From Mytilus galloprovincialis (taxonomy: Eukaryota; Mollusca; Bivalvia; Mytilida; Mytilidae): DNA of 64,000 nt. The notes below the pieces were generated by a model. That model saw only the letters and a list, made by a program, of their open reading frames with translations. It was not told where the DNA came from and searched no databases. The stretch lies in the NCBI RefSeq assembly GCF_965363235.1, contig NC_134843.1, positions 4,774,001-4,838,000 of the forward strand. The letters run 5' to 3'. A program made the position numbers and the translations under genes. Shown here piece by piece: positions 23,721 through 63,957 of the stretch. The number at the start of each line of letters is the position of its first letter. Within the stretch, counting starts at the first letter, position 1.

Positions 23721-24730
23721 AATTATTGCATAAAATTGATGGATGCGGACGCATATCCCTTGGAGATATATTTTTGGCCTATTTACACCATGTCCCTCTG
23801 TACTTCCGTGAAATGTTAGAAGAATTTCCCTCTAGATGAAATATACCAGTTGGATTATCTAACAAAAATGATCACGATTTACCGTATATATATATATATG
23901 TACAAGATCATTTATGTTTGAATTTTATTATTTTTTATTGATTGTTGTTTGCTTAAACACCAGTTGCAAATATTTCAAAATATATAGAAAGGATCCCAGG
24001 AATTACAAAAATAAAATGTCAGGCAGTACAAGAGACCACATCCAACACGTCCGTTTAATCCGAAAAAATGACTAAAGCACTAACAAAAATATTTCAATGA
24101 CCTATATTGAGAGTAATTATGAATAAAATATGTGTTTTCAGGCGTGTATAACCTTCATTGGTAGTTCAATCGTCAGCATAGTCTGTATTCACAATTAAGC
24201 ATGGGTACATCGCGTCCATCTCAGTCGGAGTATGACTCCAGTATTACTTTCTACCAGTGATCGTTCGCATTACAATCAATGGCAATTATAAAAAAAAACA
24301 ATCCTGACATAACACATCACTGTCTTACTCCTACTTTTTCATGGAAACTAGTGTCAACTTCAGAATTGATGGTACACGGGAACTTTGTATAGCACTGCTT
24401 AAAGAGTTACATATTCTTAGTTTTTAGTTTTCAAAATTTCCATAGACTTACCATGTGTAGGCTGTTCGAGACTTTTCGGAATACAAAATTCCTTGTGGCA
24501 CTGTTCTAAGATGTTTCTAGGGAAAATATGTGGACTATGCAACCTCTACCTTTGGCTTACATAAACAAGCTTGTTTTTGTCGTAGTTTCTTACCAACAAC
24601 TTTTTTAATTCTTGCTATATATCCTTACTTTATAAGTGAGAAGATGAAGTACCAATAAGACAACCCTACATCCAAGTCACACTGTGTTAAAGGTAAACAG
24701 TTATATAGGTAAAAGTACTACTTTAACACT

Positions 24731-25088
24731 GAGAATTGGTGCACGGCCAAACAGAAAGCTATGAAGGCCCAACATGGAGAATTGGTGCACACCGAAGAGA
24801 AAGCTACGAAGGACCAACACGGAGAAGTGGTGCACATCGAACAGAAAGCTATGAAGGACCAACACGGAGAAGTGGTTCACATCTAACAGAAAGCTATGAA
24901 GGACCAACACGGAGAATTGGTGCACATCGAACAGAAAGCTACGAAGGCCCAACACGGAGAATTGGTGCACATCGAACAGAAAGCTATGAAGGACCAACAC
25001 GGAGAATTGGTGCACATCGAACAGAAAGCTATGAAGGACCAACACGGAGAATTGGTGCACACCGAACAGAAAGCTATGAAGGCCCAAA
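24731..25088. repeat. 45-bp minisatellite, eight units
   Basis: Unit core GAGAATTGGTGCACATCG, then AACAGAAAGCTATGAAGG and ACCAACACG; the first unit is 46 bp. Since 45 is divisible by three, several frames on both strands are open for 70-128 codons (for example repeats of HGELVHIEQKAMKDQ). No splice sites or flanking coding sequence support translation. Confidence 0.9.
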
Positions 25089-40289: not shown

Positions 40290-40638
40290 TGTCTATTATT
40301 AATTATGAATTTCAGTCATGTTTAATCCACTTATAGGATTATCTCCCATTTGGGGTGATTTTCTTATACATTTAAAAAAACAAGTGTATGTTCAAAACAC
40401 TATTATGATAATATATTCAATTTTGATATAAATACAATAACAAAATTTTAAAATAATATTTCAATTTCTAATAGCTGTGTCTTTGAACTCCCAGACTGGT
40501 GTTTAGTTGTCTCATTGGCAATCATACCACATCTCCTTATTTATTTATAATTGTCTACTATTAGTTTCGAGATTCTGTCATGTTTAATCCACTTTTAGGT
40601 TTGTCTCCCATTGGAGCGATTTTCTTATACAGATTGTA
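40290..40638. repeat. Two copies of an 80-bp unit
   Basis: CATGTTTAATCCACTT followed by AGG, then TCTCCCAT and GATTTTCTTATACA, occurs at 40290-40372 and 40555-40638. A fragment of the GATGTGGTATGATT family (minus) lies between them at 40490-40540. Confidence 0.7.
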
Positions 40639-40674
40639 CCACTATACAGATTGTACCACTGTGACAGTTTAAAA

Positions 40675-42012
40675 CCAGATGCTCCGCAGGGCACAGCTTT
40701 ATACGACCGCAGAGGTTGAACCCTGAACGGTTGGGGCAAGTATGGACACAACTTTCAAGCTGGATTCTGCTCTAAATTTGGACTGTGATTAAATAGTTGA
40801 CACAGAATAGGTTTCTGACACAGAATGAATGTGGTCTAATGAACTTAAAATGTTTGTTTTGCCTTTAAGCAATTCACTATGCTGTTGAATATTAATCCTC
40901 TCAAAAAAATTGAAGAAATAGCAATAACTACTCATTTAAATACATCATAAAATATTAAAACGTAAAAAAAGTGCTTGTTATCACTGAATGGTAAAGATTG
41001 TTTTAATTTATCAGTTGGTAGTAAAAGTAAATATACATGTACATTGTATATCGTATAAAACAATGATTTAAATTGATTCAACTACTATTCTGGACAAAGA
41101 AAGATAACTCCAATCAATTGAAAATTTCTTGCTATTGCACAATATTGTGCAATTAGATATTTCTTGCTATTGCGCAATACTGTGCAATTGAAATTTTTTG
41201 CTATTGCACAATACTGTGCAATTGAAGATTTCTTGCTATTGCTCAATACTGTGTAATTGAAAAATTCTTGCTATTGCACAATACTGTGCAATTGAAGATT
41301 TCTTGCTATTGCTGAATACTGTGCAATTAAAAATTTCTTGCTATTGCACAATACTTAATATAATAATTTTGGATCCTGATTTGGACCAACTTGAAAACTG
41401 GGCCCATAATAAAAAATCTAAGTACATGTTTAGATTCAGCATATCAAAGAAGCCCAAGAATTCAATTTTTGTTAAAATCAAGCTAAGTTTAATTTTGGAC
41501 CCTTTGGACCTTTATGTTGACCAATTTGAAAACTGGACCAAAAATTAAGAATCTACATACACAGTTAGAATCGGCATATCAAAGAACCCCAATTATTCAT
41601 TTTTTGATGAAATCAAACAAAGTATAATTTTGGACCCTTTGGGCCCCTTATTCCTAAACTGTTGGGACCAAAACTCCCAAAATCAATCCCAACCTTCCTT
41701 TTATGGTCATAAACCTTGTGTTTAAATTTCATAGATTTCTATTTACTTATACTAAAGTTATGGTGCAAAAACCAAGAATAATGCTTATTTGGGCCCTTTT
41801 TTGACCCCTAATTCCTAAACTGTTGGAACCAAAACTCCCAAAATCAATCCCAACCTTCCTTTTGTGGTCATAAACCTTGTGTCAAAATTTTCATAAATTT
41901 CTATTTACTTAAACTAAAGTTATAGTGCGAAAACCAAGAAAATGCTAATTTGGGCCCTTTTTGGCCCCTAATTCATAAAATGTTGGGATCAAAACTCCCA
42001 AAACCAATCCCA
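40675..42012. mobile_element. Minisatellite-rich dispersed element, copy 1 (truncated)
   Basis: Head CCAGATGCTCCGCAGGGC, then TTTATACGACCGCAGAGG; then three internal blocks: a TTGCTATTGCACAATACTG minisatellite, repeats on GGACCAACTTGAAAACTGG, and repeats of about 180 bp on CAAAACTCCCAAAATCAATC. Copy 2 is at 60779-62589 in reverse order. Non-coding; class unknown. Confidence 0.8.
41118..41355. repeat. 42-bp minisatellite of TTCTTGCTATTGCACAATAC
   Basis: About six units with a self-complementary core TTGCACAATACTGTGCAA, expanded in this copy of the element compared with two or three units near 61865-62035. Confidence 0.85.
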
Positions 42013-42107
42013 ACCTTCCTTGAACAATTATATAGAAAACTCACAGGCACCAACTTTTTTACTTGCTAACTATTTTAAACAGAAAATAATTTATAAGCCT
42101 AATCAAT

Positions 42108-43002
42108 ATAACAATCATTTGAGTTCTGGAAAACATAAATATTGCTTTATTTGTTGTGGTAATGGAAGCTGTCGTACCTTGTGTGTCACACCAAATGTCA
42201 ACTGAGATCTCACAGCTATATAACAATCATTTGAGTTCTGGAAAACATAAATATTGCTTTATTTGTTGTGGTAATGGAAGCTGTTGTACCTTGTGTGTCA
42301 CACCAATGTCAACTGAGATCTCACAGCTATATAACAATCATTTGAGTTCTGGAAAACATAAATATTGTTTTATTTGTTGTGGTAATGGAAGCTGTCGTAC
42401 CTTGTGTGTCACACCAAATGTCAACTGAGATCTCACAGCTATATAACAATCATTTGAGTTCTGGAAAACATAAATATTGCTTTATTTGTTGTGGTAATGG
42501 AAGCTGTTGTACCTTGTGTGTCACACCAAATGTTAACTGAGATCTCACAGCTATATAACAATCATTTGAGTTCTGGAAAACATAAATATTGCTTTATTTG
42601 TTGTGGTAATGGAAGCTGTTGTACCTTGTGTGTCACACCAAATGTTAACTGAGATCTCACAGCTATATAACAATCATTTGAGTTCTGGAAAACATAAATA
42701 TTGCTTTATTTGTTGTGGTAATGGAAGCTGTCGTACCTTGTGTGTCACTACAAATGTCAACTGAGATCTCACAGCTATATAACAATCATTTGAGTTCTGG
42801 AAAACATAAATATTGCTTTATTTGTTGTGGTAATGGAAGCTGTCGTACCTTGTGTGTCACTACAAATGTCAACTGAGATCTCACAGCTATATAACAATCA
42901 TTTGAGTTCTGGAAAACATAAATATTGCTTTATTTGTTGTGGTAATGGAAGCTGTCGTACCTTGTGTGTCACACCAAATGTCAACTGAGATCTCACAGCT
43001 GT
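42108..43002. repeat. 112-bp tandem array made of the ASB gene's SOCS-box 3' end
   Basis: Eight head-to-tail units begin near 42108, 42220, 42331, 42443, 42555, 42667, 42779 and 42891; one unit is 111 bp, the rest 112 bp. The last unit is the actual coding end of the ASB gene on the minus strand. The other seven lie after its stop codon. Each unit carries the coding sequence for AVRSQLTF...LPLPQQIKQ...PELK plus the TGA, that is the Cul5-box half of the SOCS box, but lacks the first part of the BC box. Because 112 is not divisible by three, extra copies do not stay in one frame. Neighbouring units share variants (units 6 and 7; units 4 and 5), as expected from local unequal exchange or slippage. 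Confidence 0.95.
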
Positions 43003-44043
43003 TCGACACTGTTGTTTCAGTGAAGGTGGAGATATTCGGATGGAATACATAACTGACCAAAACTGTTGTTGATTCTTAAGCTGGTTCACAATATCTACAA
43101 GTCTTGTGTTTTCACATTTGCATTGCCAAATATCTTTATTTATTGGGAAAACAAGACCAAGGCCACTCAAAGTTTTAAGAATTGACAAAAATTTGTTAAA
43201 GACCTTATTTACACATCTATCAACACTAATTTGTAATGTGGGTTCAATTTCAAATAAACGTAAAATTGGACTACAGTTAAGAAATTCTTGTAGCATTTTG
43301 TTTTTTGTGTAAGATGCAGTAGACAGTCCATACTCTGTAAAAATTTCCTTATAGATTGGTTCAACTTTTGAAGAAATTTCTTGAGAAGATACAATCTCCA
43401 AATCAAGCATCGCAGGAAAGAAAGCTTTCTGTCTGCTACCAGATTGGCATCTTTCAAAAGGATTAGCTCCCATTTGAAGAAGGTATTTTGTAATATATAA
43501 AAAGTCTTCATCAATACGACAACGGAAAGACAATGATAGATCTATTCCCTTCTGTTTGACAAGTAAATCTGCAATATCTTCTCTTTTCATTAGCAATGCT
43601 ATCTGAAGTGGAGTGTTTCTTATATTGTCAAAAACATTCACCTCTGACCCCAATGTCAAAAGTTTTTCTACAATCTGGTAACTACCTGTAATTATGGCTT
43701 GCATAAGAGGTGTCCTCCCGATTTCAGTTTTTACTTTTATATTAGCTCCACTTTCCATTAACAATTCAACCTGTAGCAAACTTTTCTGTATACATGCAAC
43801 ATGCAAGGGAGATAATCCATTTGTTGTGCCAAGATTAATGTTGCAGCCTAGTTTTATTAACAATTTTGTCCTTGCAATGTTGTGATCAAATAAGCTGTGT
43901 ATTAACAAGGATTTCCCTTCAGAATCAACAATATCCATATAACCACCATTCCTTTTATACTCGGTCAGTAGCTGACCACTTCCATTTCTCAACGAAGTAA
44001 ATAGATCTTCCATACTGTTTCTTGAGTGGTAACGACTTGTCAT
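42898..44043 (-). CDS. ASB: Ankyrin repeat and SOCS box protein (ASB)
   Basis: One open frame of 381 residues, starting at the Met of MTSRYHSRNSM. The frame stays open above this Met, but an acceptor (AACTTCCAG, exon from 44085) lies just upstream, so the upstream codons are likely intron. About four to five ankyrin repeats span residues 41-200 (for example GLSPLHVAC, GRTPLMQAI and NTPLQIAL). A SOCS box occupies 338-381: the BC-box SLKQQCRTAV that would bind Elongin B/C, then the Cul5-box LPLP followed by IKQYLCF. Known ASB proteins are substrate adaptors of Cullin-5 ubiquitin ligases, with the ankyrin part choosing the target. The stop codon is followed at once by seven further copies of the SOCS-box coding segment (see the array). 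Which ASB paralogue this is cannot be said. Confidence 0.93.
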   Translation of the reverse strand: MTSRYHSRNSMEDLFTSLRNGSGQLLTEYKRNGGYMDIVDSEGKSLLIHSLFDHNIARTKLLIKLGCNINLGTTNGLSPLHVACIQKSLLQVELLMESGANIKVKTEIGRTPLMQAIITGSYQIVEKLLTLGSEVNVFDNIRNTPLQIALLMKREDIADLLVKQKGIDLSLSFRCRIDEDFLYITKYLLQMGANPFERCQSGSRQKAFFPAMLDLEIVSSQEISSKVEPIYKEIFTEYGLSTASYTKNKMLQEFLNCSPILRLFEIEPTLQISVDRCVNKVFNKFLSILKTLSGLGLVFPINKDIWQCKCENTRLVDIVNQLKNQQQFWSVMYSIRISPPSLKQQCRTAVRSQLTFGVTHKVRQLPLPQQIKQYLCFPELK

Positions 44044-44205
44044 TATCTTAACATTTTTTCTCACAAACGTCTTAACCCGGACGTGCTGGAAGTTAAAACA
44101 AAAAACCATTATTAAACATGTACAAGTATATCTTACAAACGTGAAAAATTTATACTCAAGATATAAAGATGGCTTGAATTTTGTTTCTTGTTTCTCATTT
44201 CTCAT

Positions 44206-52888: not shown

Positions 52889-55800
52889 ATGCCTACTGAA
52901 CCTGAAGCCAGACAAGAGTATGCTGTTTGGGGGAGATCAATTGTAAAGAATTACGGAGGTGGAAAGAGGAAATTTCAAGTACTCCAGAACTTGGATATTA
53001 CAGTTCAGCGTGGATGCATGTATGACCACTATCAATATTTTATTAGAAAAGATCAGAAATCCTCAGCTTCCTATATGTAGGGAGGTCCTCATTTTTTAGT
53101 GTTGGGAGGTCAATTGTAGTGAGGTCAGGTCACCTTACTGATGTATGTAGAGGTTAATTGAGGAGTGAGGCCATCTTATTGATGTATATAGAGTTTGATT
53201 GTCTTGTAGGGAGGTCATCTCATTGTAGTGGTATTAGGTCAACTCATTATAGTGAATGTAGGTCAGACATTATCACAATAAAATTATAATTGTTTTTTAT
53301 TAAATTGGTTATAACTTAATTTCATAATTTTAGCCACAATCTCTTCATTTTTTTCCTTGCTTGTGACTTCACTAAACGAGACTTTTCAACAAACTTGTTA
53401 CATTATGACATCACTGTATGAGATTTTCACCAAACTTGTTTCATAACATGAGGAACAGAAAAGATGCAACATGTGAAGCAGGATCTGCTTACCTTCAGGG
53501 GCCATGGAATCATCTTTGGTTTTCACAGTCTTTTTCTAATTTTTAATTTTCTATGTTTTGACGATTTTTGTTTTTTCTCTTGTCAGTATTTTGTTGGTTT
53601 GTTTTTTATTCATATCAATTGTCTTTGACTTAAAAGATTTAAGAAACAAAAAATTAAAGGTTTTTGTTAATGAGCAAGAAGTAAGAGGCATGTCTGTAAA
53701 GAAGAAACAATTAATATTCCGATTTTGACTTTGAAGTCCTTCAGTTAATCATTGTAGAAAGTTTAAAGTGTTTATATTTCTGTGAAAGTCCAACTTCCAT
53801 TAGTAATAACACATATATACAGTAAATAGATAAGTTCTGTGAAAGTCCAACTTCCATTAGTTATAACACATATATACCGGTACAGTAAATAGATAAGTTC
53901 TGTGAAAGTCCAACTTCCATTAGTTATAACACATATATACAGTAAATAGATAAGATATTATACCTTACAGGTAAATAAGAAGATAATGATTTCTGCATAC
54001 ATTAGTACCTTTTTTTGAATTTTTAAAGCTTTTGAAATGTAAGATGCATCTTCTTTTTAGATATGGCTTGCTAGGTCCAAGTGGCTGCGGTAAAACTACA
54101 TTACTACGATGCATTCTGGGTAAATTACATTTGGATGGAGGTCATATGGTTGTCCTTGGTAACAGACCTGGTGCACCAGGACATGGTGTTCCAGGAAGTC
54201 TTGTTGGCTACATGCCACAGGTAAATCTTTTTATACGCAACCTGTTTTTTTTTTTTTTTTATTATTTACAGGAATGTGCATATAAACACAAAGCACTCAT
54301 AGAACATTGGCCATTATGTACAAAATGCAGATTTTTATTGAAAGCAATGACTTTTTTCTATGTCTAGCTAAATAAGATCTATGCGGACTCAGCACTGGTT
54401 TAAAGTAATGTCTCCTCCATGACAGTCTTGAACATTAAAACTCAATATTAATTAAAAGACACTGCTATTTTCAGTGTTTTGTACAGGCTGGCTGTCACTG
54501 TGCACAATAGTTCAACATAGAACTCTATGGGGGAAAACTGCAGGTTTCTTTTTTGTCAGAAATCACTGTCAGACATCCAAACATACTATCCACACTGGTT
54601 TGTGTCCACACTTATTTTTATTTACAAGTTTAAATAGTTATTTCTTCATTGAACTAAAACTTCACAAGAAGATCAACAATTACTAGTAAGGCTCTGTTTA
54701 TTTTATAAATGGAAAGCAAAGTTATACTTTTGACTTGTCAGTAAAGAGTATGATCACATTTTCATGTTCCCATTGATTGTTCAATCAAAGATTGGATTAT
54801 TTTTCAGGAAACAGCATTATTTAATGACTTGACTATTGGTGAAACATTGAAGTACTTTGGGTATATTCATGGTATGTGTAAAGTACATATACAGAAAAGA
54901 ACAGAATTTCTACTGAATTTCTTATCACTGCCAGAACAGAACAGACTTATCAATACTCTAAGGTATAAATAATGTATTATGGCACGTACATGTATTCTTA
55001 CTTATGAATTTTCATTTACTTTTTTGCTATTTTGCAAGATTTTATATTAAATCATTTTACTCTTTTAATCATGATCATAGATTATCATTGGTTATCTCAG
55101 CAAGATTGATTTTCTCGCTTTATTAATTTCATTGAAAACCAGCACATGCGCCCTTAGTTTCCAGCAATAATTTTTCATATCACTCAACTCCGCTGAGCAA
55201 GGAAATTATCAGCGAGCAAGATCAAAGGAAAATTTGGAAAAATAATGCTAAAGATTATTATATCTGTGTATGACTCTTCTTATTAAAACATAGTCCCCTT
55301 TTTGGAAGATTAGGAGTCAGTTTCACCAAATAACTTAAGTTTAAGATTGGTCGTAAGTATATTGAATTGTTCATGAGTTGAAATCAATGTTACTCTGAGT
55401 AATAAGTTTTTTTGTGAAACCAACTCCGGGGTCTTACATCCTAGTAGTACATCAAATTTGGGGAGTTTTTGATGCAGTCAAATACCTGGTATCAAAATAT
55501 AGTATGTATAAGTTGAAATTTGGGCATAGACATTATACAAAATGATTGTTTTTCAATGCTTAATATATTGTTTATGCATTGTCCATTGTGAAAAAAATCT
55601 TGTTAATTTAATGAAAGTTTATCACAGGTAAATGTTTTTTTAGAATATCCTATGTGGATGTGCACATTCCTATTGACTGTACTTATCTTAATCAAGGTAT
55701 GAATGTTCAAATGCCTGTATGACTAGAATCTGGTTTGGTAGTGGCAATTGACACAACTATTTAAAAAGATACCTATACACAGGAATATTAGATTTGGTAT

Positions 55801-58800: not shown

Positions 58801-61800
58801 AAAGTTATGTCATGATGATCAACCTGATGAAGAAATATTGAACTGTAATTTTTCAAGGAATGTGAGTACTATTTTAATAAAGCAATCTTGTCTTGAGGGA
58901 TTGCCAGAGATGAGAGGAGGACTAGTGATGTTCCCTCTTTGTCTGTTAATCATTCCTCCTGTTTGTCTGTTTAAACACAAAAGGAAGGGGTAAATAGTCT
59001 GTATGAAGCACAGCTCCAACAGTTTTCTGACAACCTCATTCCAACTTTTACTAATGATTGCATACAGGTTGAAGATGGTGGACCTTCTATTTTGGACAGA
59101 GTTTATATAATTTTCTAATGCAATTATTTTGTATCAATGGCTCTGATTGGATGACAGTAAGCATAAAATTTGCTCTCCTTGTCTGTAACTAAGGAAGCCG
59201 TCATTTTGATTTGCAGAATGTATTGACACGTAATTTCTACAATAATAAGCAAAAGAACCCACATGTTGCACCTATAAATCTTCTAAATGTCAAATTTTAT
59301 TACATTCTGAAGGGGCCAAGAAGCCAGAAAACGCCTGTTGTTTATGTTTGACTTCGGAAGCATACTTATGATGTCACCTAGTTTAGGGACCAAAGAAGAT
59401 AACATCTTTGCGCAGAATTTTCTTCGGTGAAATTTTTATACTCAAATAACGATTGAAATTTAATTATGAATTTGTTTTGCATTAGAAAAGAGATAACTCT
59501 ATTGAATTTGAAGCTTTGTGGACGTCCATTGGTAGTGTTACTGGTGCAAATACCCTTTTACCTGTCTCCGCTAGGCGATGCCAGGTGAACTAAAGTTGCG
59601 ACAGTAAAACTACGTCCGCAAAGCTTCAAATACAATTCAGTTATCTCTTATTTCTACTGAGGTTTGTCATGCATGAAGGTAAGTTATTATGTCATAAAAT
59701 GTATAAAAAGAAACTAGTACTTAACATGCTCAAACATAATAGCAACCATATTCTTTTATTTTGATTAGTACAATTTATTGATTTCTTATCTAAATTTTTC
59801 AATCATTATGACCCTGAACATGATGATGGCTGTTCTGCGAAGCAGTCCAGTGTGACAGAGTGAAAGAATTGGTCTATTTTTGTAGTTAAATTGAAAAAGT
59901 ACAAATATATGTATAGACAGTTCTTTAGCTCCTTCTATATCAGATAGGACAGATAAATGAAAAAAAAAATCCAGAGTTTCAGACATAGGTAAATATCTAA
60001 AAGACAATAACAATCAAAACCAATTAGTAAACAAAGACTCATTAAACCAAAAGACATTTACATCAACAGTTATAAATTAAAAATCAGAAACAACACGAAC
60101 TCCACTAAAACCCAGGAGTGAAATCAGGTGCTCCGGATGGGTAAGCATTTTATGCAATGTAAAAATGAAATGTCATTTTCTATTTTAAATTACATTTGTT
60201 ACCAATGATTACTATTTAGTTTGAATAATATTAAAATGTTTTAATTTCAGGCAATATTAGAAAGCGAGAAGAGAAGAATATCAGCTGATAAGCGTTCTGT
60301 TGTGAACGAGACAACTCCATTAATTGGTGTCAGTGGAAATACAGATGACTGTAAGTTGTTTTGAAATCAGATATGACAGAATCAGTCAACCAATAAGACA
60401 ACTTTTCCTTTCAAAAATTCCTTTGGGAACCATGGAGACTAAAAGGCTATTTTAGATATGATAGGCTAATTTCAACCAAATTTAATAAAGGAACCTAAAT
60501 TTTGTGGGTTTGTTCGCTGCTGCATGTTGGTACTAGTAATTATTGTTTTGATTTAAAATTGTTATGATATATTTAAAATTCCATTTGAATTAATACTTTA
60601 ACAGTAAAGGTTTTCGTTATGCACTGAAAGTATAATTATATCATGTATATTGCAATAGATTTTCTGTCAAGCAATGACTCCCAAATGAGGAAGATAAGCA
60701 GACTTAGTTTTGGTACAATTCCGAATTTCAAGACAAGTTTTCTTGAAGCAAGATATAACAAAGATAAAATCTACAAGTTTTTATTATACGACCGCAAAAT
60801 TTGAAAAATTTTTCGTCGTATATTGCTATCACGTTGGCGTCGTCGTCGTCGTCCGAATACTTTTAGTTTTCGCACTCTAACTTTTGTAAAAGTGAATGGA
60901 AATCTATGAAATTTTAACACAAGGTTTATGACCACAAAAGGAAGGTTGGTATTGATTTTGGGAGTTTTGGTCCCAACATTTTAGGAATTAGGGGCCAAAA
61001 AGGGCCCAAATAAGCATTTTCTTGGTTTTCGCACTATAACTTTAGTTTAAGTTAATAGAAATCTATGAAATTTTGACACAAGGTTTATGACCACAAAAGA
61101 ACGGTTGGGATTGATTTTGGGAGTTTTGGTTTCAACAGTTTAGGAATTAGGGGCCAAAAAAGGGCCCAAATAAGCATTATTCTTGGTTTTCGCACAATAA
61201 CTTTAGTTTAAGTAAATAGAAATCTATGAAATTTAAACACAAGGTTTATGACCATAAAAGGAAGGTTGGTATTGATTTTGGGAGTTTTGGTCCCAACAGA
61301 ATAAGGGGCCCAAAGGGTCCAAAATTAAACTTTGTTTGATTTCATCAAAATTGAATAATTGGGGTTCTTTGATATGCCGAATCTAACTGTCATGACTGTG
61401 TATGTAGATTCTTAACTTTTGGTCCCGTTTTCAAATTGGTCTACATTAAGGTCCAAAGGGTCCAAAATTAAACTTAGTTTGATTTTGACAAAAAATGAAT
61501 CAGTTAGGTTCTTTGATATGCTGAATCTAAAAATGTACTTAGATTCTTGATTATTGGCCCAGTTTTCAAGTTGGTCCAAATCGGGTTCCAAAATTAAACT
61601 TTGTTTGATTTCATCAAAAATTGAATAAATGGGGTTCTTTGATATACCAAATCTAACTGTGTATGTAGATTCTTCATTTTTGGTCCTGTTTTCAAATTGG
61701 TCTACACTAAAGTCCAAAGGGTCCAAAATTAAACTTAGTCTGATTTTAACAAAAATTGAAATCTTGGGGTTCTTTGATATGCTGAATCCAAAAATGTACT

Positions 61801-63957
61801 TAGATTTTTTATTATGGGCCCAGTTTTCAAGTTGGTCCAAATCAGGATCTAAAATTATTATATTAAGTATTGTGCAATAGCAAGTCTTTTCAATTGCACA
61901 GTATTGCGCAATGGCAAGAAATATCTAATTGCACAATATTGTGAAATAGCAAATTTTTTTTTAATTAGAGTTATCTTTCTTTGTCCAGAATAGTAAGCAA
62001 GAAATATCTAATTGCAAAATATTGTGCAATAGCAAGATTTTTTGTAATTGGAGTTATCTTTCTTTGTCCAGAATCAACTTAAATCTTTGTTATATACAAT
62101 ATACAATGTATATTCACTTTTTACTACCAACTGATAAATTAAAATAATCTTTACCATTCAGTGATAACAAGCAGTTTTTTTACATCTTAATATTTTATGA
62201 TGTATTTAAATGAGTAGTTATTGTTGCAAACTCCATTAGAAATTTTAATTGAGATTAGTTTTGGAATAATGGAAAGGGGGATGTGATTAAAAAAATTGGG
62301 TTCAATTTTTCTCATTTGAAATTTCATAAATAAAAAAGAAAATTTCTTCAAACATTTTTTTGAGAGGATTAATATTCAACAGCATAGTGAATTGCTCTAA
62401 GAGAAAACAAAAATTTTAAGTTCATTAGAACACATTCATTCTGTGTCAGAAACCTATGCTGTGTCAACTATTTAATCACAATCCAAATTTAGAGCTAAAT
62501 CCAGCTTGAATGTTGTGTCCATACTTGCCCCAACCGTTCAGGGTTCAACCTCTGCGGTCGTATAAAGCTACGCCCTGCGGAGCATCTGGTAAATTTTTGT
62601 ATTAAAGAATTCGGCATTAATGTACAATTATTGAACTATGGACAATTACTTAGTACCAGTTATTGTACATTAACTTAATTAGAGAGGAACATGTTTCCTG
62701 ACATATAATCAAAATAAAACTTTTGTTTCAGATGATATGATGCCTCCCAATACTCAAAAGTTTGACTGTCGTTGTGGTTGTCCATCATTAAAAAATATAT
62801 TTGCTCAAACTGTGAAAAATCTGACATTAATGAAGAGAAATATAGGGTAAGCATGCTGCTTTTGTGAAGCTTAAAGTTCATTTATAATTTTAGAGTGGAT
62901 CAACTTCACTCATAGAATAAACTTAAGTATTACAAATTCCATCTTTTTAAAATTGTTAAAGTTTTTGAATTTTTACTCAATCTAGGAAACAGTATATATT
63001 TTTATTTCTGTGCCATAGACTTTTTTTTTATAAAGATGGTGAATAAATTTGTGGGTTTTCATTTGTTTTTATAATGCCACAATATGACTGGTGTATTTTT
63101 ATAATGCCACAATATGACTGGTGTATTTTTATAATGCCACAATATGACTGGTGTATTTTTATTATTTATATGAATATTTTTATTAGTATATGTTTCACTG
63201 TGGCATATTTTGTAAACTTCAGAATCTTGTTAATATTTCGATCTCTAACCAAGAAACCTACTTGCATTTTATAACTTTCTACATTGTAGATTTCTGTTGT
63301 TCCAGTTTATCTTGCCATCCATACAGATTATACTGTTTTGTATATGTATTGGAAGAAAGCCTTATGACCTTACTATGTCGGTTGTCAATGCTGAATCGGG
63401 AGTCATAAGATTCAGTGATATGTTTTTAGACTGTTTAGATTCCTCTTCAATACACAATGTGAGTAAAACCTTGTCGAATAAAAATTATGAAATGTTCTAT
63501 AAAATTATGATTTATGAAATCCTATCTTATTTAATGGCAAGGCAGAACTTTGAACTCAGCAAAAAAAATCATTGGTTATTCTGTCACATGGAATCATGGA
63601 GAATGTTTTCCTTAGTTAATCACTCACATTCAATCTATTAAGAAAACTTCAAAATTGTGATATTGGTTAATGAAAAGTGATGTTATTTGATCTTCTTAAT
63701 CAGGAACACAGCAAAGTAGTGTCTCTAAATATCCATTCTATTTGTACTTACTTCAAAAAGAAACTTAAGTATAACAGATAGTATTTTGTACACACATAAC
63801 TGCATAAGAGATATTTAGAGCATATGCAGTAAATTCTGAGCATTAAATTGCAGGTATCCTATAAAGATCTACCGTCAGCATTAGAGTCAGTGAGAGAAGG
63901 AAAGAGTTGGGGAGTAATCAGTATCGGTCAAAATTTCTCACAGGACTTACTTCAAAG
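52889..63957 (+). CDS. ABCH: ABCH-type (ABCG20/23-like) ABC transporter, N-terminal eleven exons
   Basis: Coding exons: 52889-53019, 54061-54220, 54808-54962, 57069-57176, 57889-57988, 58304-58378, 58781-58861, 60251-60350, 62732-62846, 63290-63458 and 63854-63957. All junctions are AG/GT and phases match throughout, giving 432 codons before the window edge. The nucleotide-binding domain is complete: Walker A GPSGCGKT (49-56), Q-loop after GYMPQ (97), signature SGGQ (149-152), Walker B LLILDEPT (168-175), D-loop VGVDP and H-loop H208 in [22 protein letters not shown] and [10 protein letters not shown] are hallmarks I know from the insect and mollusc ABCH group. A linker follows, then a first membrane helix (343-363, in exon 10) and the start of a large extracellular loop. 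These are half-transporters that dimerise to export lipids or other hydrophobic compounds; the substrate here is unknown. The remaining helices lie beyond the window. Confidence 0.95.
53085..53270 (+). repeat. Irregular GGGAGGTC / TTGTAGTG repeats in ABCH intron 1
   Basis: GGGAGGTC occurs at three places, with TATTGATGTAT(A/G)TAGAG-type words between. No clean period. Confidence 0.4.
53450..53620 (+). repeat. Worn copy of the GAGCAACACGACG repeat
   Basis: ACATGTGAAGCAGGATCTGC and TTTTCTATGTTTTG follow the order of 10884-11060. In ABCH intron 1. Confidence 0.5.
53779..53955. repeat. 57-63-bp tandem repeat, three units, ABCH intron 1
   Basis: Units start TCTGTGAAAGTCCAACTTCC and end CAGTAAATAGATAAG; the second has six extra bases. 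Confidence 0.88.
55855..55960. repeat. CTCCCGCTTTTCAGACCC-type repeat fragment, ABCH intron 3
   Basis: GGCGGGAGTTAAAATCTCCC, then CCCTCCCGTTAAAATTTGAA. The doubled CTCCCG...TTAAAAT words suggest a small dispersed repeat. Confidence 0.4.
57560..57665 (-). repeat. Short dispersed repeat in ABCH intron 4
   Basis: CTTTGAAGGCCGTACAGTGACC, ACCTATAGTTGTTAATGTC, TTGTCTCATTGGCAATGATAC: near-consensus minus copy of the GATGTGGTATGATT family. Confidence 0.85.
59489..59648. mobile_element. Foldback MITE in ABCH intron 7
   Basis: AGAGATAACTCTATTGAATT with TGAAGCTTTGTGGACGT opens it; ACGTCCGCAAAGCTTCAA with ATTCAGTTATCTCT closes it: arms of about 37 bp around an 85-bp centre. Confidence 0.8.
60779..62589. 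mobile_element. Minisatellite-rich dispersed element, copy 2, in ABCH intron 8
   Basis: Starts TTATACGACCGCAAAATTTG and ends TCTGCGGTCGTATAAAGC with GGAGCATCTGG, so TTATACGACCGCA stands inverted near both ends. Three repeats of about 180 bp on GATTTTGGGAGTTTTGG and four of about 150 bp on GATATGCTGAATCTAA lie between, then TTGCACAATATTGTG words. Non-coding; open frames of 83 and 142 codons are products of the repeats. Confidence 0.82.
63070..63163. repeat. 30-bp tandem repeat, three units, ABCH intron 9
   Basis: ATAATGCCACAATATGACTG then GTGTATTTTT, three identical units. Confidence 0.92.

Follow-up and report, generated by a model that had tools for sequence, protein, structure and literature searches.

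The 3' end of an ankyrin-repeat/SOCS-box (ASB-like) gene of Mytilus galloprovincialis is present in tandem: one coding unit is followed by seven head-to-tail downstream copies. We regard this array as a young minisatellite of coding origin, grown from a tandem duplication that took in just part of the gene, its 3' end, and we give this reading a probability of about 0.8. The array is most likely a young, harmless repeat and not a new kind of genetic device. It lies within the window, i.e. the whole stretch of 64,000 nucleotides that was analysed.

Anatomy of the array and its host gene

The tandem array (42106-43000) has a period of 112 bp, 8.0 copies, 98% matches and a TRF score of 1713, in other words it consists of near-identical, head-to-tail units like those of a minisatellite. 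Each unit contains the last 33 codons of the ASB-like gene, the stop codon and 9 further bases. It starts at a point corresponding to position 43000, where the third base of codon 402 lies (within SLKQQCRTAVR), it ends 9 bases past the TGA, and thus spans part of the BC box, the Cul5 box, the stop and a few bases. On the plus strand the units start at 42110, 42222, 42333, 42445, 42557, 42669, 42781 and 42893, and all are 112 bp long except the second, which is 111 bp long. The features of the region are the following (strand is given where one was assigned).

42898..44205, minus strand: ankyrin-repeat/SOCS-box (ASB-like) open frame, 435 codons when taken as the longest frame
42893..43000, minus strand: unit 8, the coding unit; from the third base of codon 402 through the stop (42900-42898) and into the start of the 9 trailing bases
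42781..42888, minus strand: unit 7, a downstream copy with GGT>GTA (G411V) and the same sequence as unit 6
42669..42776, minus strand: unit 6, downstream copy; GGT>GTA (G411V)
42557..42664, minus strand: unit 5, a downstream copy with the same sequence as unit 4: CGA>CAA (R417Q) plus a silent TTG>TTA
42445..42552, minus strand: unit 4, a downstream copy with CGA>CAA (R417Q) plus a silent TTG>TTA
42333..42440, minus strand: unit 3, downstream copy; a single silent change, AAG>AAA
42222..42328, minus strand: unit 2, a downstream copy that lacks one base (frameshift ahead of the Cul5 box) and has CGA>CAA
42110..42217, minus strand: unit 1, the farthest copy; no difference from the coding unit over 108 bp
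42146..42934, minus strand: eight AATAAA hexamers, one in each unit, with their first bases at 42934, 42822, 42710, 42598, 42486, 42374, 42263 and 42151
42022..42105: short stretch between the array and a dispersed repeat; lacking in 33 of the 39 other listed genome copies of that repeat, all 33 of which end at 42021
40674..42021: the dispersed repeat itself, with 35-, 135- and 161-bp tandem arrays of its own; a neighbour of the 112-bp array, separate from it

The preliminary description of this region had taken the units for copies of the last coding segment of the ASB gene itself, and this is confirmed by the anatomy of the units, by their translation and by the placement of the Pfam domain. 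The array was also correctly placed and described there, and it does have eight units in all; what was called eightfold copying is, however, an original with seven copies.

By sequence the host gene is an ordinary ASB family member. Its frame, which runs from 44205 to 42898, encodes 435 amino acids with ankyrin repeats (Ank_2 at 72.2 bits, and further ankyrin families above their Pfam cut-offs) followed by a C-terminal SOCS box (PF07525, residues 392-429, 44 bits against a cut-off of 23.5). The same order of domains is found in ASB9 (PDB 3zng, 3zkj and 6v9h), and the SOCS tail matches ASB9 chains (human-type) in the PDB with a best E value of 1.1e-4. The translation contains an LPLP motif, which we take to be putatively involved in binding elongin B/C and cullin 5 as part of a ubiquitin ligase.

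The neighbourhood is rich in other repeats. The dispersed repeat has two oppositely oriented copies in the window (40674-42021 and 60863-62590), with internal arrays whose periods are 35 bp, about 135 bp and about 160 bp, and at least 39 other copies in the genome with 91-95% identity (the best 40 of 4981 first-look candidates were scored). We considered whether the 112-bp array could be a part of this repeat and rejected the idea, since 33 of the 39 other listed copies end at 42021 (one ends at 42022 and five earlier, again among the best 40 of 4981 candidates) and 84 bases intervene between the two. Short tandem repeats occur in other places of the window as well: a 45-bp unit repeated eight times at 24725-25087, open over 118 codons on the plus and 128 codons on the minus strand; 3.2 copies of 30 bp with 100% matches at 63066-63162; and 3.0 copies of 63 bp with 89% matches at 53778-53954. 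No Rfam families were detected in the window and no tRNA genes were found. The folding energy of the array RNA is inconspicuous (z = -1.10, with 4 of 20 shuffled sequences as good).

Variation among the units

All eight units were aligned and compared over 108 bp. Six of the 108 columns are variable and the mean pairwise difference is 2.3 bases, i.e. 2.1%. The changes comprise one frameshift, two kinds of missense change and two silent changes, and a missense change or frameshift is present in 5 of the 7 downstream units. Read as a protein tail, two downstream units are unchanged, four have one altered residue and one has a frameshift that would truncate the SOCS box, so that the full 33-codon tail frame is open in six of the seven. 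There is no sign of constraint in these changes, which are too few for a test of it. One of them, CGA>CAA (R417Q), affects a CpG site and may have had more than one independent origin.

None of the variants of units 2-7 occurs in the coding unit. The identical pairs are the neighbours 4 and 5, the neighbours 6 and 7, and units 1 and 8, which are the two ends of the array. Since both end units are alike and free of the internal variants, their sequence is likely to be the ancestral sequence of the array. It had been noted earlier that adjacent units share variants, which is true of the two neighbouring pairs; such sharing does not, however, go beyond chance (exact permutation over all orders of the eight units, P = 0.29 for the summed differences between neighbours and P = 0.17 for the number of identical neighbours), and the third pair joins the array ends.

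Occurrence of the array in the genome and among SOCS-box loci

DNA searches, in which very common words were skipped, located the array at one site only in the 1.38-Gb assembly. A second site with no link to an ASB gene had been named beforehand as the finding that would speak against the proposed connection, and none was found in that assembly. In a protein search, the part of the frame after residue 246 matched just the host gene and its own array among the matches listed. A search of the assembly with the SOCS_box profile gave 91 rows, namely the host gene, six downstream units of the array (all above the family cut-off) and 84 others. We examined 69 of these 84 loci, the remaining 15 being weaker matches, and a copied tail was found in none of them; 20 of the 69 were viewed with just about 0.3-0.5 kb behind the frame, and in one (L081) the frame meets a stop inside the match. 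The only similarity seen was a single weak match of 31 bases in L083, upstream of the frame. As the array was found once and in none of the 69 other loci, it is not a family-wide arrangement among the loci examined. Calling the array unusual is thus fair within the gene family, but the process needed to produce it is ordinary tandem duplication.

A wider scan for arrays covered the window and the 69 loci, 284,548 bases that are not a random sample, and found 81 tandem arrays. In seven cases a frame of at least 80 codons starts outside and stops inside an array with a period of at least 20: the 112-bp array, the dispersed repeat at 61318-61857, the 198-bp arrays of loci L017 and L026, and loci L048, L054 and L064. 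Leaving the last three aside, the 112-bp array is the one case in these non-randomly chosen bases that we recognised as near-identical copies of a domain end including its stop. The two 198-bp arrays (L017, 985-2220; L026, 1589-3091) are located at ankyrin loci, where a long frame enters the array from outside and stops within it, and the repeat continues past the stop. A small literature search, covering titles and the openings of abstracts, found no described case of an array like the present one.

Origin of the array and comparison with known systems

The mechanism behind the array is probably ordinary. The 3' end of the gene (last 33 codons, stop and 9 bases) would have been duplicated in tandem, and the duplicate would then have grown to eight units by slippage or unequal exchange. 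The flanks at the duplication joint (GTCGAAC/AGCTGTG and TTATAT/TGATTAG, the slash marking the joint) have no visible bases in common, as expected from a blunt first duplication. Every unit brings its own stop, so the gene-proximal unit would supply the C-terminus and translation would end in it at any unit number. The other units would be 3'-UTR or flank, drifting without function and without visible constraint, and gain or loss of whole units would leave the protein intact. We also considered whether readthrough into the copies could supply a second SOCS box. This was rejected: 112 is not a multiple of 3, the SOCS frame is lost past the first stop and the next stop follows after 40 codons.

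Several observations leave room for other readings. Local conversion could likewise account for the two pairs of identical neighbours, six of the seven copies keep the tail frame (which, with so few changes, says little), and the regular series of AATAAA hexamers could have been selected. On the basis of these motifs the array may be a ladder of putative cleavage signals for the ASB-like gene. One hexamer is inside the coding sequence, 28 nt ahead of the stop; the other seven are downstream of the stop, beginning at a distance of 75 nt. The next AATAAA beyond the array is at 40540-40545 (TTTATT at 40540), which in a gene with a single unit would put it some 1.57 kb behind the stop. The distance from the stop to the first AATAAA is 9-1310 nt in 47 of 49 other SOCS loci, and the remaining two have none in the flank examined. 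One could therefore imagine that the array has been kept as a source of AATAAA, its seven hexamers replacing a poor 3' end near the dispersed repeat. We consider this improbable, though it is the foremost of the alternatives. A hexamer in such a tail is unremarkable, as its chance is 0.20 with the codon usage of the gene itself and about 0.19 for a 112-nt stretch of the window, and 7 of the 49 other loci have one within the last 114 coding bases; besides, two variant hexamers beyond the array, TATAAA (42095) and AGTAAA (42063), could serve the same purpose.

It is instructive to compare the array with silent-cassette systems such as pilE/pilS and vlsE, in which the end of an expressed gene is overwritten from adjoining silent partial copies. 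The likeness is that silent partial copies adjoin an expressed copy here too, and the preliminary description had suggested that the real SOCS box may be renewed from its downstream copies by exchange. Any unit moved to the first place would read in frame, and most downstream units keep the whole tail. Both changed residues fall in the segment that separates the BC box from the Cul5 box, and the position two residues ahead of the LPxP leucine varies among the SOCS tails examined; the identity of neighbours 4 and 5, and of 6 and 7, could be added to this list. Swapping the terminal unit is accordingly possible in mechanical terms, but one of the seven copies would truncate the box and four would alter one residue. 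Repeated replacement of the coding unit by unequal exchange or conversion, with the SOCS tail evolving along with the array, is nevertheless very unlikely. Alignment of the units with the coding unit, the comparison proposed for detecting conversion, gave no sign of transfer in the single allele at hand: the coding unit has no internal variant and equals the farthest unit over 108 bp, and the sharing between neighbours is at chance level. The suggested renewal is thus unsupported. The copies are nearly identical and have almost no diversity to donate, one of the seven is frameshifted, and nothing points to a system that generates diversity. Slightly less probable still is a live reserve of tails, in which exchange would change the end of the SOCS box and at the same time reset the number of poly(A)-type signals, so that the C-terminus and the 3' end would co-evolve. 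Least probable of all, and close to negligible, is an artefact in which one or two units were inflated to eight: tandem arrays are known to be error-prone in assemblies, but the units differ by variants at fixed places, among them a two-base change and a deletion, and the 895 bp of the array would be a short distance for a long-read assembly.

The minisatellite reading has parallels among known systems. Minisatellites or VNTRs at the border between coding sequence and 3'-UTR resemble the array in having near-identical, head-to-tail units of about 100 bp with some identities between neighbours, and the account given in PMC3449122 names slippage or unequal exchange as the usual way in which such arrays grow. 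The difference is that the 112-bp unit consists of the terminal part of an open frame, stop included, so one unit always codes. Partial gene duplicates, as treated by Katju (2012, PMC3449122), likewise place an incomplete copy of a frame beside the gene, sometimes with amplified short tracts, whereas here just the last 33 codons are present, in seven copies that, as far as seen, lack their own promoter and start. The mean difference between units (2.1%) is below the heterozygosity of 3.27% given for M. galloprovincialis in PMC11183127, and the array may for this reason be young enough to vary in unit number between individuals.

For the annotation of SOCS-box genes the array is a warning, as open SOCS-box tails may be mere repeat copies: six of the 91 rows of the profile search are downstream units. 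If the number of units does vary between individuals, the locus would be a clean natural test of array turnover at a coding end, in which each allele would keep a full protein and C-terminal variants, frameshifts and 3'-end signals would enter or leave the coding position.
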